A stretch of 64,000 bases of DNA from an uncultured Pseudomonadota bacterium (GTDB taxonomy: Bacteria > Pseudomonadota > Alphaproteobacteria > RF32 > CAG-239), in the NCBI GenBank assembly GCA_902763155.1, contig CACWQS010000005.1, forward strand, positions 1 to 64,000, read 5' to 3'. Positions 35,700 to 46,163 of the stretch are shown here, in pieces. Positions within the stretch are counted from its first letter, which is position 1. Each line of letters begins with the position of its first letter. Made by a program: the position numbers and the translations under genes. The notes beneath the pieces are model-generated. The model did not search any database. It was given only the letters and a program-made list of their open reading frames with translations, and was not told where the DNA came from.

Positions 35700-36584
35700 A
35701 TGCTGTGTATTTATCATATTGCCGATCATGACGGAAAAGGCTCGGCGGCGATTGTAAAATTGATGTTTCCTGAGACGGAGTTGATGGGTTTAAATCATGA
35801 TATGGAAGTGCCGTATGAAGAAATTGAAAAGCACGATAAAATAGTGATTTGCGATATCGCCTTGCCGATAAAATACATGTTGGAGCTGAATAAAAAAATT
35901 GATTTAACGTGGATTGATCATCATATTTCGGTGATTAAGGAATATGACGAACTGATGGCAAGCGGAGAATATGAGCCGATTAAAGGTTTGCGCAAAGTGG
36001 GAACGGCGGCACTGGTGTTGACTTGGCAATATTTTCATCCGAACGAAGAACTTCCGGAAGGTCTGCGTTTGTTGGGGTTGAACGATATTTATGATTTGCG
36101 CGATAGACGGGTGCGCCCGTTTGAACTGGCTATTCAGTCTTATGGCGTTAACCGACCGACAGATAAGGTATGGCAGCAAATTATCAATGGTGAACTGGAC
36201 ATCAAAGCTGTGGTAGAAAAGGGTAATTCCATTTTAGGTTGGGTGCGTCAGAAAAATTATCGTTTGGTGCGTGGCATGGCTTTTGAGAGCGAGTATAAAG
36301 GGTTGAAATGCATTTGTTCGAATATGGCACAAGGACAGTCGGAGTTTTTTGATTCGCTTGAAAATTTGCGCAGTTATGATTTTATGGCTAATTTCTTTAT
36401 GAACAAGCGTAATAAGTGGAATGTAACGTTTTATACATACAAAGACGATGTTGATGTGTCAAAAATTGCGGCAGAATTCGGTGGCGGAGGTCATGCCAAA
36501 GCGGCGGGGGCTTCGTCGCTTGATAAATTGCCGGACTTTCTCTTGAACGGTAAGCCGTGGACCAGACCGGCACCGAAGGAATAA
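35700..36584 (+). CDS. DHH family phosphoesterase
   Basis: The N-terminal DHH domain has IADHDGKGSAAI (Asp9 and Asp11), ICDIALP and the WIDHH motif near residue 72. The C-terminal DHHA1 domain carries the glycine motif FGGGGHAKAAG near residue 263. These enzymes cut short oligoribonucleotides (NrnA type) or cyclic dinucleotides such as c-di-AMP; this branch is not assigned. I place the start at ATG 35700, 6 bases after AGAGG; ATG 35697 is also possible. 294 residues. It is the last gene of the run from mltB. Confidence 0.88.
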   Translation: MLCIYHIADHDGKGSAAIVKLMFPETELMGLNHDMEVPYEEIEKHDKIVICDIALPIKYMLELNKKIDLTWIDHHISVIKEYDELMASGEYEPIKGLRKVGTAALVLTWQYFHPNEELPEGLRLLGLNDIYDLRDRRVRPFELAIQSYGVNRPTDKVWQQIINGELDIKAVVEKGNSILGWVRQKNYRLVRGMAFESEYKGLKCICSNMAQGQSEFFDSLENLRSYDFMANFFMNKRNKWNVTFYTYKDDVDVSKIAAEFGGGGHAKAAGASSLDKLPDFLLNGKPWTRPAPKE

Positions 36585-36637
36585 GGAGTGTTAAAAGTAT
36601 ATATTTAAAATGTTGTCGCGAAGGGCGGTTTCTTTCT

Positions 36638-36745
36638 ACGTCATAGCTAGTTTGAAAGATTAGTGTGGATTTCGCCAGAAAGGCGCCATATTTGTGAGCT
36701 AAAGCGACCAAAATATGTAATCTTTCTTCTACAAAGCTATCCAGA
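36638..36745 (-). repeat. Divergent inverted copy of the palindromic repeat
   Basis: On the plus strand it reads ACGTCATAGCTAGTTTGAAAG to AAGCTATCCAG. That is the reverse-complement order of the 99-bp repeat (ACGTCAT, AGCTA, TTGAAAA, then CTAAAGCG and ATCCAG). It also has an internal 9-bp inverted repeat (GAAAGATTA 36654-36662 with TAATCTTTC 36717-36725) and a GCC/GGC hairpin. It lies next to copy 1 in opposite orientation. Homology is judged by eye. Confidence 0.5.
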
Positions 36746-36768
36746 ATCTATATAGCTTATTTATCCTA

Positions 36769-36867
36769 GATTATCACGCGAATTGAAAATGGATTTTTCT
36801 TGCGCTTTAGGCTTGGAAAAATCAGCCTATTGCATAGGCTTACATTTTCAATAGCTCATAATGACGT
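36769..36867 (+). repeat. Palindromic repeat, copy 1 (99 bp)
   Basis: This 99-bp unit recurs at 39220-39318 with one mismatch. Inside it a 10-bp inverted repeat (ATTGAAAATG ... CATTTTCAAT) encloses a small hairpin, AGCCTA TTGCA TAGGCT. The ends read GATTATCACGCG and CTCATAATGACGT. Similarity extends some 27 bases further left at a lower level (CCAGAAT...). It codes for nothing; the shape suits a MITE- or REP-like element. Confidence 0.85.
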
Positions 36868-37001
36868 TTGTGTTTTCACTGTAATTTTTGAATATTCAGG
36901 CTGAAGAATTATTTTTTAGTACTTTTTGTGATTTTTGATATATTGTTCAAGGGTAAAAGTAAATTTCTAAACAAAAAAACAAAATTTGTATAATTTTTTT
37001 G

Positions 37002-37030
37002 TTGCAAAATCGTTATAAATAAGGTAATAT
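37002..37030 (+). promoter_or_regulatory. Promoter of the structured leader RNA
   Basis: TTGCAA at 37002-37007 and TAATAT at 37025-37030 are exactly 17 bases apart, in very AT-rich DNA. Transcription would start near 37037. Confidence 0.6.
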
Positions 37031-37036
37031 GAATAA

Positions 37037-37331
37037 TAGATAAGCGGAGTTCTTTTCGGTAGAAAGGGCGGTGCTTGTTTAGAATCAGAGGTGGTTCGGA
37101 GCTGTCAGAAGCTCTCATATTACACTCGGTAAAGGGATTTATCGTTAGGTTATAAGGCTTATTGCCTGACCGATTTCCCAGACTATAAAAATGGTCTGGG
37201 AGCTTTTAGCGGATGTCCAAGAGTTGCTTAATTTATCTCTGGACAAAAAGCAACTTGAAAGGCTAAAAGAGTCATTTAGTGTAATGTGATTTCTGAACTC
37301 TCAGACCACCGCAATAGGTGGTTTTAATTTT
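37037..37331 (+). ncRNA. Unidentified structured RNA or switch-like leader
   Basis: About 290 bases with many nested stems. GGTGGT 37090-37095 can pair with ACCACC 37305-37310. CATATTACACT (37116-37126) pairs with AGTGTAATGTG (37278-37288). TCGGT/ACCGA, CCCAGAC/GTCTGGG (37177-37183, 37194-37200), CTTTTAGC/GCTAAAAG and GTCC..AGAG/CTCTGGAC are further stems. ACCACC can instead pair with GGTGGT 37317-37322 to form a terminator followed by TTTAATTTT, so two folds compete. I can match it to no known family (not tmRNA, RNase P or SRP RNA). It may be an independent RNA or a regulator of the next gene. Confidence 0.6.
37305..37331 (+). terminator. Terminator at the end of the structured RNA
   Basis: ACCACC 37305-37310 and GGTGGT 37317-37322 form a 6-bp stem with loop GCAATA, followed by TTTAATTTT. 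The left arm also pairs with 37090-37095, so formation may be conditional. Confidence 0.6.
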
Positions 37332-37348
37332 GCGCGGGAGTAAAGAAA

Positions 37349-39145
37349 ATGAGCAAAATTGTTCAAAAAAGAGAATTACAGGAAGATGGACACTATCAAG
37401 TTAGTTCATATGATACCGAAACACAAAAATTAACACATCGTTGGTATGAAAACCAAAATGGCAAAAAAGATGGTGAAGAACTAGAATTCAATTATACAGG
37501 TAAAGTCCATAGGGTTACTGATTGGAAAAATGGCAAAAAAGATGGTATTGAAATTTGTTTTAATACAGGAATTTCTATTGAAGATTTAGAAGAAACAAAA
37601 AGTAGATGTAATAAAGGTGATTATGCTTATATTTCTTTCCTTTATGTAACTAACTGGAAAGATGATATAAAACATGGGGAAGAAATTATAACAGATTTGG
37701 GAAAAAATCTGACTGCAAGAAGTGAATATAATAATGGGCAACAAATTAAGAATATCCAATATTTGTATAAACTGACTCCTGAAATAGAACAATTTTTAAA
37801 AGATGTGCGTGCTCCTTGGTTATCTAATCCTGAAAGCATTTATATTAAAAAAGACGGTATAAAAAATGAAATTTTATACATTGAAATGAATAAACCAGCA
37901 AGACATTATGTTCACGAATATACAGGTTTTCACTATGCGATGAAGTTCAAAGATGGAAAGGAGTATGATGGCGACTATAGATATCACCATATTAGAGATC
38001 AAGAACATTATTCATTAAAAGAAGGAAAACTTAATGGTAGTTTCTGGCTCGAGAATAGAGTAGGAAGCTATTGGGATGGTAAATTTTCTGGAGAAGAAAC
38101 AATATCTATAACAGATACACCATTAGGTAATAATATTGAAGATTTGAAAAATTTTACAAACCAATGGACGATAGAAAATAAAGGCATTAAGAATGCATCA
38201 AAAATTATTCATGCCGATAAAGTAAGTGGTTACAAAATTAAAACAGCAAAAGAGGAATATGATATACCACTAAATGGTAATGCACATCTTGAAAATTATG
38301 GCATAGTCATAGATTGTGAAATTAAAGATGGAAAACTGAATGGTTTATATAAAGCATTCGGAGATAAAGTGCTTGATGGTGATTGCTCTTTCAAAAAAGA
38401 ATGCTCTTATAAAGATGGAGTACTTGATGGAGATTATACAGAAACAAGAGAAAGAATTATACCTCATGAAGCATATAGAAATGGTATAAAAGAAAAAATA
38501 GAAATTAAATGCCAATATAAAAATGGTGAATTAGATGGCATATACGAAGAAGTAAAGCAACCAGCAGAAGATGTAGCATATCAATATAGGTATAAGTATA
38601 AAAATACTTTTGAATATAAGGATGGTGTTTTAGATGGCGTTTATATAAATGAAGAAGAAAGAGTATCTACTCATTATAAAGAAGGTAAATTAGATGGAAA
38701 ATATGTAAAGTTTTCATCTAAAAATAATCAAAAAGAAACAGAAAAAGAATATAAAGATGGAAAATTAAACGGAATATGCATTGAATATGATGAGTACGGT
38801 TTCAAAACAGTTGAAAGTACATATAAAGATGATGTGCTTGATGGACCATATAAAGAATATTTCAGAAATGGAAAGCCAAAATGTGAAGGTTCATATAGCA
38901 ATGGTGAAAAAAATGGTTTTTGGAAAACTTATGTTGATAATGGTGATTTAATTGAAATGCGCCGTTTTGAAAATGATAAAGATGTAACCGAGCGTTATAA
39001 TAAGCTAAAGAAAATCGCCTCTAAGCGGATTGATAAAGAAAAAGCCATTGAGGCCGAAACCGGCGTCAAGACTCGTTTGCCGAAGATGAGTAAAGGCGCT
39101 AAAGTGGTCGCTATGGTCAAGGAAAGTTTAGGATTGTCGAAGTAG
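37349..39145 (+). CDS. MORN_2/YwqK-like repeat protein, 598 aa
   Basis: Repeats of the type YKDGxLDGxYxEY run through most of the length (for example YKDGVLDGDY, YKNGELDGIY, YKEGKLDGKY, YKDGKLNGIC and YKDDVLDGPYKEY). They match MORN_2 repeats, found in YwqK-type antitoxins and surface proteins. No signal peptide. The last 55 residues are a different, basic tail (from ERYNKLKKIASKR to ESLGLSK). Codon use changes there, from AGA Arg to CGN Arg. GGGAG is 8 bases before the ATG, right after the RNA terminator. Function unknown. Confidence 0.8.
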   Translation: MSKIVQKRELQEDGHYQVSSYDTETQKLTHRWYENQNGKKDGEELEFNYTGKVHRVTDWKNGKKDGIEICFNTGISIEDLEETKSRCNKGDYAYISFLYVTNWKDDIKHGEEIITDLGKNLTARSEYNNGQQIKNIQYLYKLTPEIEQFLKDVRAPWLSNPESIYIKKDGIKNEILYIEMNKPARHYVHEYTGFHYAMKFKDGKEYDGDYRYHHIRDQEHYSLKEGKLNGSFWLENRVGSYWDGKFSGEETISITDTPLGNNIEDLKNFTNQWTIENKGIKNASKIIHADKVSGYKIKTAKEEYDIPLNGNAHLENYGIVIDCEIKDGKLNGLYKAFGDKVLDGDCSFKKECSYKDGVLDGDYTETRERIIPHEAYRNGIKEKIEIKCQYKNGELDGIYEEVKQPAEDVAYQYRYKYKNTFEYKDGVLDGVYINEEERVSTHYKEGKLDGKYVKFSSKNNQKETEKEYKDGKLNGICIEYDEYGFKTVESTYKDDVLDGPYKEYFRNGKPKCEGSYSNGEKNGFWKTYVDNGDLIEMRRFENDKDVTERYNKLKKIASKRIDKEKAIEAETGVKTRLPKMSKGAKVVAMVKESLGLSK

Positions 39146-46031: not shown

Positions 46032-46163
46032 AAAGCGAATTTAGAGAATTTTTACCATTGAAAATGTTGTAAAAATATCGACTCTAAGGAGTTCCGTCAG
46101 TCAGCGAGGGTTCGCACACTGGCGTAAATTTGTTTGTTATGGCAATAAAGGAAAACGACTTTA

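Follow-up and report, generated by a model that had tools for sequence, protein, structure and literature searches.

The described RNA closest to the one analysed here is sRNA-Xcc1, which in Xanthomonas is an 88-nt RNA with mapped ends that has been treated as a trans-acting sRNA, in that study (PMC2996969) and in later ones; its family has been reported in integron cassettes, and sRNA-Xcc1 upstream of symE (PMC12444791). It is known as a free-standing RNA of which databases list only the 3' half: the Rfam model, RF02221, is labelled an sRNA gene and spans only the 3' 87 nt of the fold described below. In the open-access literature, outside which most subscription papers lie, we found no description of this leader or of a cis-acting sRNA-Xcc1. 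Two kinds of regulatory leader also invite comparison. Riboswitches with termination or SD-sequestration platforms share with our RNA a pseudoknotted core, interchangeable platforms, and mutually exclusive helices, but the targets of our leader are accessory genes without a common pathway, and a genome may hold as many as 91 copies of it. Transcription attenuators of the leader-peptide type resemble it in having alternative hairpins of which one is a terminator, and differ in that our leader has no conserved leader peptide, the AUG in its P5 loop being replaced in several lineages. Among the genes that the leader precedes are some related to QseM, an antiactivator that has been described together with its DUF2285 domain (PMC10359603).

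We analysed a 64,000-nt stretch of an uncultured alphaproteobacterial genome (GTDB order RF32, family CAG-239; contig CACWQS010000005.1), referred to as the window.

A conserved RNA upstream of a MORN-like gene

Positions 37037-37330 of the window are one copy of a conserved pseudoknotted leader RNA, situated in the 3' part of a 764-bp intergenic gap between a DHH-type gene (ending at 36584) and a 598-aa MORN-repeat-like gene (starting at 37349). The predicted fold reaches -107.8 kcal/mol against -76.8 kcal/mol for shuffled sequence (z -5.6), a value that 0 of 100 shuffles reach. An earlier, sequence-only reading had begun the element at 36585, which is too early because 36585 to about 36958 is not conserved at the orthologous locus of genome G014; homology picks up again at about 36959, and the leader RNA is 93% identical between the two loci and the flanking gene 83%. 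The non-conserved part of the gap contains a hairpin (AGCCTATTGCATAGGCT, 36824-36840) that is terminator-like on either strand.

That reading had located the hexamers ACCACC (37305-37310) and GGTGGT (37090-37095 and 37317-37322) exactly, as the sequence confirms. Its terminator hairpin and T-tract were recovered at 37303-37324 (-11.5 kcal/mol), and the MORN-like gene does start 18 nt 3' of the T-tract. The "clear promoter" that it had described did not hold up: the best -35/-10 pair in 36980-37060 matches at 8 of 12 positions and the consensus scan listed none there, so that a clear sigma-70 promoter is rejected. Promoter-like matches are modestly enriched across the low-GC copies (56% versus 31%). 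The downstream protein matches MORN_2 below the cut-off (E 0.0022) and the adhesin model NF033566 far below it (E 1e-4), and its gene (37349..39145) is very probably the target of the leader. Elsewhere in the window, positions 46080-46132 match the Rfam family RF01793, "ffh sRNA", above its cut-off (37.5 bits).

Table 1. Features of the window copy, with the evidence for each
Feature	Coordinates	Strand	Basis
Weak promoter candidate TTGCAA-17-TAATAT	37002..37030	+	8/12 only, absent from consensus scan; predicted
5' hairpin, varies among copies	37037..37081	+	MFE fold; similar ones by eye in other copies
P0 hairpin GAATCAGAGGTGGTTC, holds the 5' GGTGGT	37082..37097	+	MFE fold
P1 hairpin, loop holds strand a	37098..37114	+	100% of cells paired, both alignments
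Strand a (TCAGAA), P1 loop, pairs with a' (pseudoknot PK1)	37105..37110	+	pairing counts
Strand b (ATTACACT), pairs with b' in P7 loop (P2)	37119..37126	+	8/8 pairs with two-sided changes, 92.7% paired
P3 hairpin	37127..37144	+	93.4% paired
S1 (CCCAGACT), pairs with S2 (P4 hairpin)	37177..37184	+	100% paired; at least 7/8 pairs in 169/173 copies
S2 (GGTCTGGGAG), common to S1 and S3	37193..37202	+	alignment pairing, 173-copy count, folding energies
P5 (37203-37210:37262-37269) with P6 (37222-37227:37250-37255)	37203..37269	+	P5 100% and 98.4% paired
P7 hairpin (TCAT:GTGA), loop holds b' (37278-37285)	37272..37289	+	high-GC copies 99% paired, 4/4 two-sided
Strand a' (TTCTGA), pairs with a	37291..37296	+	pairing counts
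S3 (CTCTCAGACC), pairs with S2 or joins terminator	37298..37307	+	S2:S3 at least 9.5/10 in 163/173 copies
Intrinsic terminator AGACCACC-GCAATA-GGTGGTTT plus T-tract, overlaps S3	37303..37330	+	terminator search; 113/129 low-GC copies
Shine-Dalgarno GGGAG	37336..37340	+	sequence
Putative regulated gene, 598-aa MORN-repeat-like protein	37349..39145	+	open frame; sub-cut-off domain matches

Covariation and the conserved helices

Pairs were counted on two alignments only, A1 (27 copies aligned without structure; 53 pairs counted) and A6 (54 high-GC copies, likewise structure-blind and independent of A1), because alignments A2-A4 were fitted to covariance model R1. In A1, 94.7% of cells are paired, against 75.8% after shuffling and 31-45% when slid, and 40 of the 53 pairs show two-sided changes; in A6 the figures are 90.6% and, for shuffles, 75.7%. 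For each alignment 0 of 500 shuffles reach the observed value. The covariation in A1 is decisive. The real, conserved stems number eight helices in the window clade and ten in the high-GC copies, pseudoknots counted in. Among paired positions G.U outnumbers A.C by 117 to 17, which indicates selection on the plus-strand RNA, and so strong a G.U bias argues against a DNA-level function such as an attC site.

The pseudoknot PK1 (a:a') is paired in 100% of A1 cells and 99.6% of A6 cells; 4 of its 6 pairs in A1 and 4 of its 5 in A6 show two-sided changes, as do all 8 pairs of P5 across the two alignments. The P5/P6 region contains a conserved internal loop (GGATGTCCA / GAAAG) with invariant loop columns. 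The P0 pairs show two-sided changes among the high-GC copies, although just 68% of their cells are paired. The P5 loop has an AUG after GGGGAG that might have opened an upstream ORF or encoded a leader peptide; we rejected this reading because the AUG is lost or replaced in several lineages.

A proposed three-strand switch

From the single sequence, a two-state design had been proposed in which the GGTGGT at 37090 competes for ACCACC. Mutually exclusive folds, one of them a terminator, are supported by the comparison, but the partner strand is S2 and not the 5' GGTGGT. The latter pairing is present in the window and close relatives and is not conserved beyond them; among 135 low-GC copies, 34% contain a GGTGGT:ACCACC match of at least 5 nt, compared with 25% when partners are swapped. 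The 5' arm of the terminator does have a conserved competitor, S2 (37193-37202), which pairs with S3 (37298-37307). Of 173 distinct copies, 163 retain at least 9.5 of the 10 S2:S3 pairs and 169 at least 7 of the 8 S1:S2 pairs. The constancy of S2 in these counts is partly a selection artefact because the search pattern fixed most of S2 in recruited copies, while S1 and S3 were free. Where S2 carries a CTG variant, S1 and S3 both read CAG (9 of 9 copies). Taken by itself, the high-GC alignment has S2:S3 paired at 99.6% but shows no covariation in it; outside the clade the two strands are rewritten yet still pair, for example at loci L284, L285, L289 and L295 (e.g. CUCCGGGGG:CCCCCGGAG).

In the window copy, S2 pairs with S1 (the P4 hairpin) at -15.6 kcal/mol and with S3 at -16.1 kcal/mol. 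Under nested folding, with no pseudoknots, S1:S2 plus the terminator beats S2:S3 by about 17 kcal/mol; because this favours the OFF state, reaching the ON state would depend on pseudoknots, co-transcriptional kinetics or a ligand. In the mechanism that we propose, P1, P2, PK1, P3, P5-P7 and S2:S3 would form a compact fold in which S2 sequesters S3, and with S3 so held the terminator would be incomplete and the MORN-like gene would be transcribed (ON). In the alternative fold S2 would pair with S1, releasing S3 into the terminator and stopping transcription before the gene (OFF).

Expression platforms in three lineages

A terminator overlapping S3 in the expected position occurs in 113 of 129 low-GC copies, against 3.7% in the control, and in 0 of 59 high-GC copies. 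In the high-GC copies S3 complements the ribosome site over at least 5 nt in 31 of 34 cases, against 13.8% of control genes, and 13 of 19 RF02221 members have an extra copy of loop a further downstream, close to the ribosome site, against 11% in the control; downstream copies of loop a find no support in the window clade (13% versus 8%). These comparisons indicate that one core has three outputs by lineage: a terminator, S3 against the Shine-Dalgarno, and pseudoknot-loop repeats near it. High-GC Alphaproteobacteria would use the core to set S3 (CUCCCC) against the Shine-Dalgarno, and RF02221-type members would use it with an extra pseudoknot-strand copy close by. We infer that the compact fold is the ON state in each of the three platforms.

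Two further features lie 3' of the core, before the start codon. Among high-GC alphaproteobacterial copies, L164 and L104 for instance, 50 of 59 have a strongly conserved hairpin, GCGGGGGCGYACCGC, in the stretch that follows S3, and its 3' part is able to pair with P0 in some copies. In the region from S3 to the start, the RF02221 members L301-L320 repeat loop a, and by eye often loop b, around the Shine-Dalgarno, as in L316 (CCGAAAA-GGAG-CAAACAG).

Distribution and downstream genes

Homologous leaders, whose presence in related genomes had been suggested as a check, were found widely by blastn and covariance models. A blastn search with 37000-37348 against 56 relatives matched 22 genomes, often several times each and before different genes. 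Model R1, whose E-values, like those of all home-made covariance models, are rough, detected copies in 85 of 101 genomes belonging to the window's family, in 108 of 125 genomes of an order sample (nearly all from that family), and in 22 of 289 genomes of the class. Model R2, which was built on A6 (54 high-GC copies) and holds no window-clade sequence, recovered the RNA from 45 of 337 genomes of the class and 33 of 398 of the phylum, including some that lie outside the class, where the signal is weaker. A DNA pattern taken from the core matched at least 115 contigs, including Rhizobium, Methylobacterium, Paracoccus, the Sphingomonas group and Acidobacteria, with confirmation by R1. Relatives of a pTi copy occur on 173 plasmids, of which 143 are conjugative; blastn against a phage collection gave no match. 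Copies per genome reach about 91 in G016 (a 1.6-Mb genome), 51 in G124 and 37 in G011. The window's own genome has two R1 copies and a third, RF02221-like copy below the cut-off (L321, C4:16273-16359, minus strand), which has a terminator and no clear gene directly downstream.

When 220 copies were scanned for downstream starts, 211 were called and 170 of these (about 81%) fall 20-79 nt past the core; the starts were called automatically and some are wrong, and because the scan is permissive it is the clustering of start positions, and not the 211, that counts as evidence. The 192 usable downstream proteins fall into 71 unrelated clusters with no shared pathway. They include TraM, RovC_DNA-bd, pilins, BspA-type LRR proteins, outer-membrane barrels, glycosyltransferases, PD-(D/E)XK and GmrSD-type nucleases, HTH regulators and others. 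On pSinA the leader RNA lies immediately 5' of traM. Small RovC_DNA-bd proteins follow the RNA at L158 (Pfam tested) and, by eye, at L188, L200, L232, L292 and L298; we take RovC_DNA-bd to be the present name of DUF2285, the domain found in the antiactivator QseM. The same leader precedes two unrelated antiactivators, RovC_DNA-bd proteins (QseM-related, mobile-element transfer) and, in other elements, TraM. In G016 (loci L065-L091, L247-L266), 30 of 30 sampled copies precede paralogous pilin-like genes (GRSMIEMLGVLAIIGVLSVGGIAGYSKAM).

Relation to sRNA-Xcc1

The sequence-only reading knew of no family that fits, which is half true because the leader, while under any Rfam threshold in its window copy, is a distant full-length relative of RF02221. 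An Rfam search of the window, at the gathering cut-off and at E 10, gave only chance matches at the RNA and no RF02221; the window copy does not reach the RF02221 cut-off of 53 bits, and the C4 copy in the same genome scores 37.9 bits (E 2.6e-5), also below it. Model R2 bridges the two, matching the window copy (E 1.4e-9) and several RF02221 members end to end, over model positions 1-192 at E 5.6e-7 and 2.7e-6; R1 matches these members only weakly. Divergent R2 hits match RF02221, and one locus that R2 detected, L300, reaches 56.2 bits in Rfam. R2 thus supports homology across the 3' domain that both share (outer helix, P5/P6, P7).

We sampled 19 genuine or near-threshold RF02221 members from the best matches. 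S2:S3 is kept in all 19, and in 18 of them the sequence 5' of the Rfam model holds a P1-like hairpin with a loop complementary to a' over at least 6 nt, against 15% with swapped a'. The S2:S3 outer helix, P5/P6 and P7 correspond between the two groups, which also share the P1/PK1 5' domain. The window clade departs from RF02221 in possessing S1, one more hairpin 3' of P3 and a platform made of a terminator, where RF02221 has the repeated-loop platform; S1 cannot be readily recognised in every RF02221-type member. The mapped 88-nt Xanthomonas RNA is the size of the S2:S3-closed domain. Together, the model matches and shared helices support remote homology of the window RNA to sRNA-Xcc1.

Discussion

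Sequence comparison shows the helices and the S1/S2/S3 design, the platforms, the placement of the RNA ahead of genes and its homology to sRNA-Xcc1. Probably, in our view, the product is a leader RNA that acts in cis in the manner of a riboswitch or attenuator and is built from a large pseudoknotted core and a platform separable from it. This general reading had already been made from the single sequence and remains the best account of the comparative data, although its competing strand was wrong and its promoter is weak. The RNA resembles a riboswitch in its 5' leader position, in its conserved core with a platform, and in its exclusive pairings tied to a terminator or ribosome site; for a metabolite riboswitch, 71 target families that share no pathway would be unusual. 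The choice of fold is presumably regulated, and a small molecule, an ion or a protein may drive it. We tentatively propose, as a possibility somewhat short of probable, an undescribed and widespread predicted riboswitch class in which sRNA-Xcc1 would be the 3' half of a ligand-sensing leader of about 200 nt, with reciprocal loop-strand pseudoknots and at least three platforms, controlling accessory genes (pilins, adhesins, TraM and QseM-like quorum-sensing antiactivators, phage antirepressors, nucleases) in Proteobacteria and some Acidobacteria.

The 88-nt, end-mapped form in which sRNA-Xcc1 accumulates in Xanthomonas (PMC2996969), the copies on conjugative plasmids and the reported integron cassettes (PMC12444791) would suit a trans-acting small RNA gene with its own terminator, whose adjacency to genes is a by-product of shared travel on mobile elements. 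We regard this as quite unlikely. Start codons cluster 20-79 nt downstream, the terminator is present in 0 of 59 high-GC copies, which complement their own ribosome site instead, loop copies adjoin the ribosome site in RF02221 members, and the 88-nt RNA matches the S2-to-S3 closed domain, as expected of a processed stable core; moreover, the pseudoknot letters differ among copies, so no common target pairing is kept. That orientation and spacing to the gene are constant also tells against a mobile or selfish repeat whose only contribution is a promoter and a terminator, without regulation, as do the strong compensatory evolution and the single copy per sampled pilin paralogue in G016 (30/30), which fits co-duplication with the gene; despite the very high copy number (91, 51 and 37 per genome) and the occurrence on plasmids, we give this reading very little credence.

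A cis-acting leader could also answer to a protein, such as an antitermination or autoregulatory factor, or to temperature, and not to a small ligand. The diversity of targets, many of them envelope and mobile-element genes, fits such a leader, and the second hairpin of the high-GC copies (GCGGGGGCGYACCGC, 50/59) is a possible protein site. Several pseudoknots and an invariant internal loop resemble an aptamer, however, and GC content and stem strengths vary so greatly across lineages as to be ill-suited to a thermometer, and on balance we think this alternative unlikely.

Across Proteobacteria, copies of the leader lie ahead of hundreds of genes that are unrelated to one another and of surface, mobile-element or defence type. 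If the leader reading is right, an RNA listed so far as a small trans-acting molecule from plant pathogens belongs to a leader-RNA superfamily that extends from gut Alphaproteobacteria to conjugative plasmids, with about 91 copies in one genome. The three-strand switch offers precise, testable mutations. The signal, once found, would reveal the condition that switches on envelope variation genes, and the same signal would bear on the conjugation-restraining proteins of Ti-like plasmids and integrative elements.
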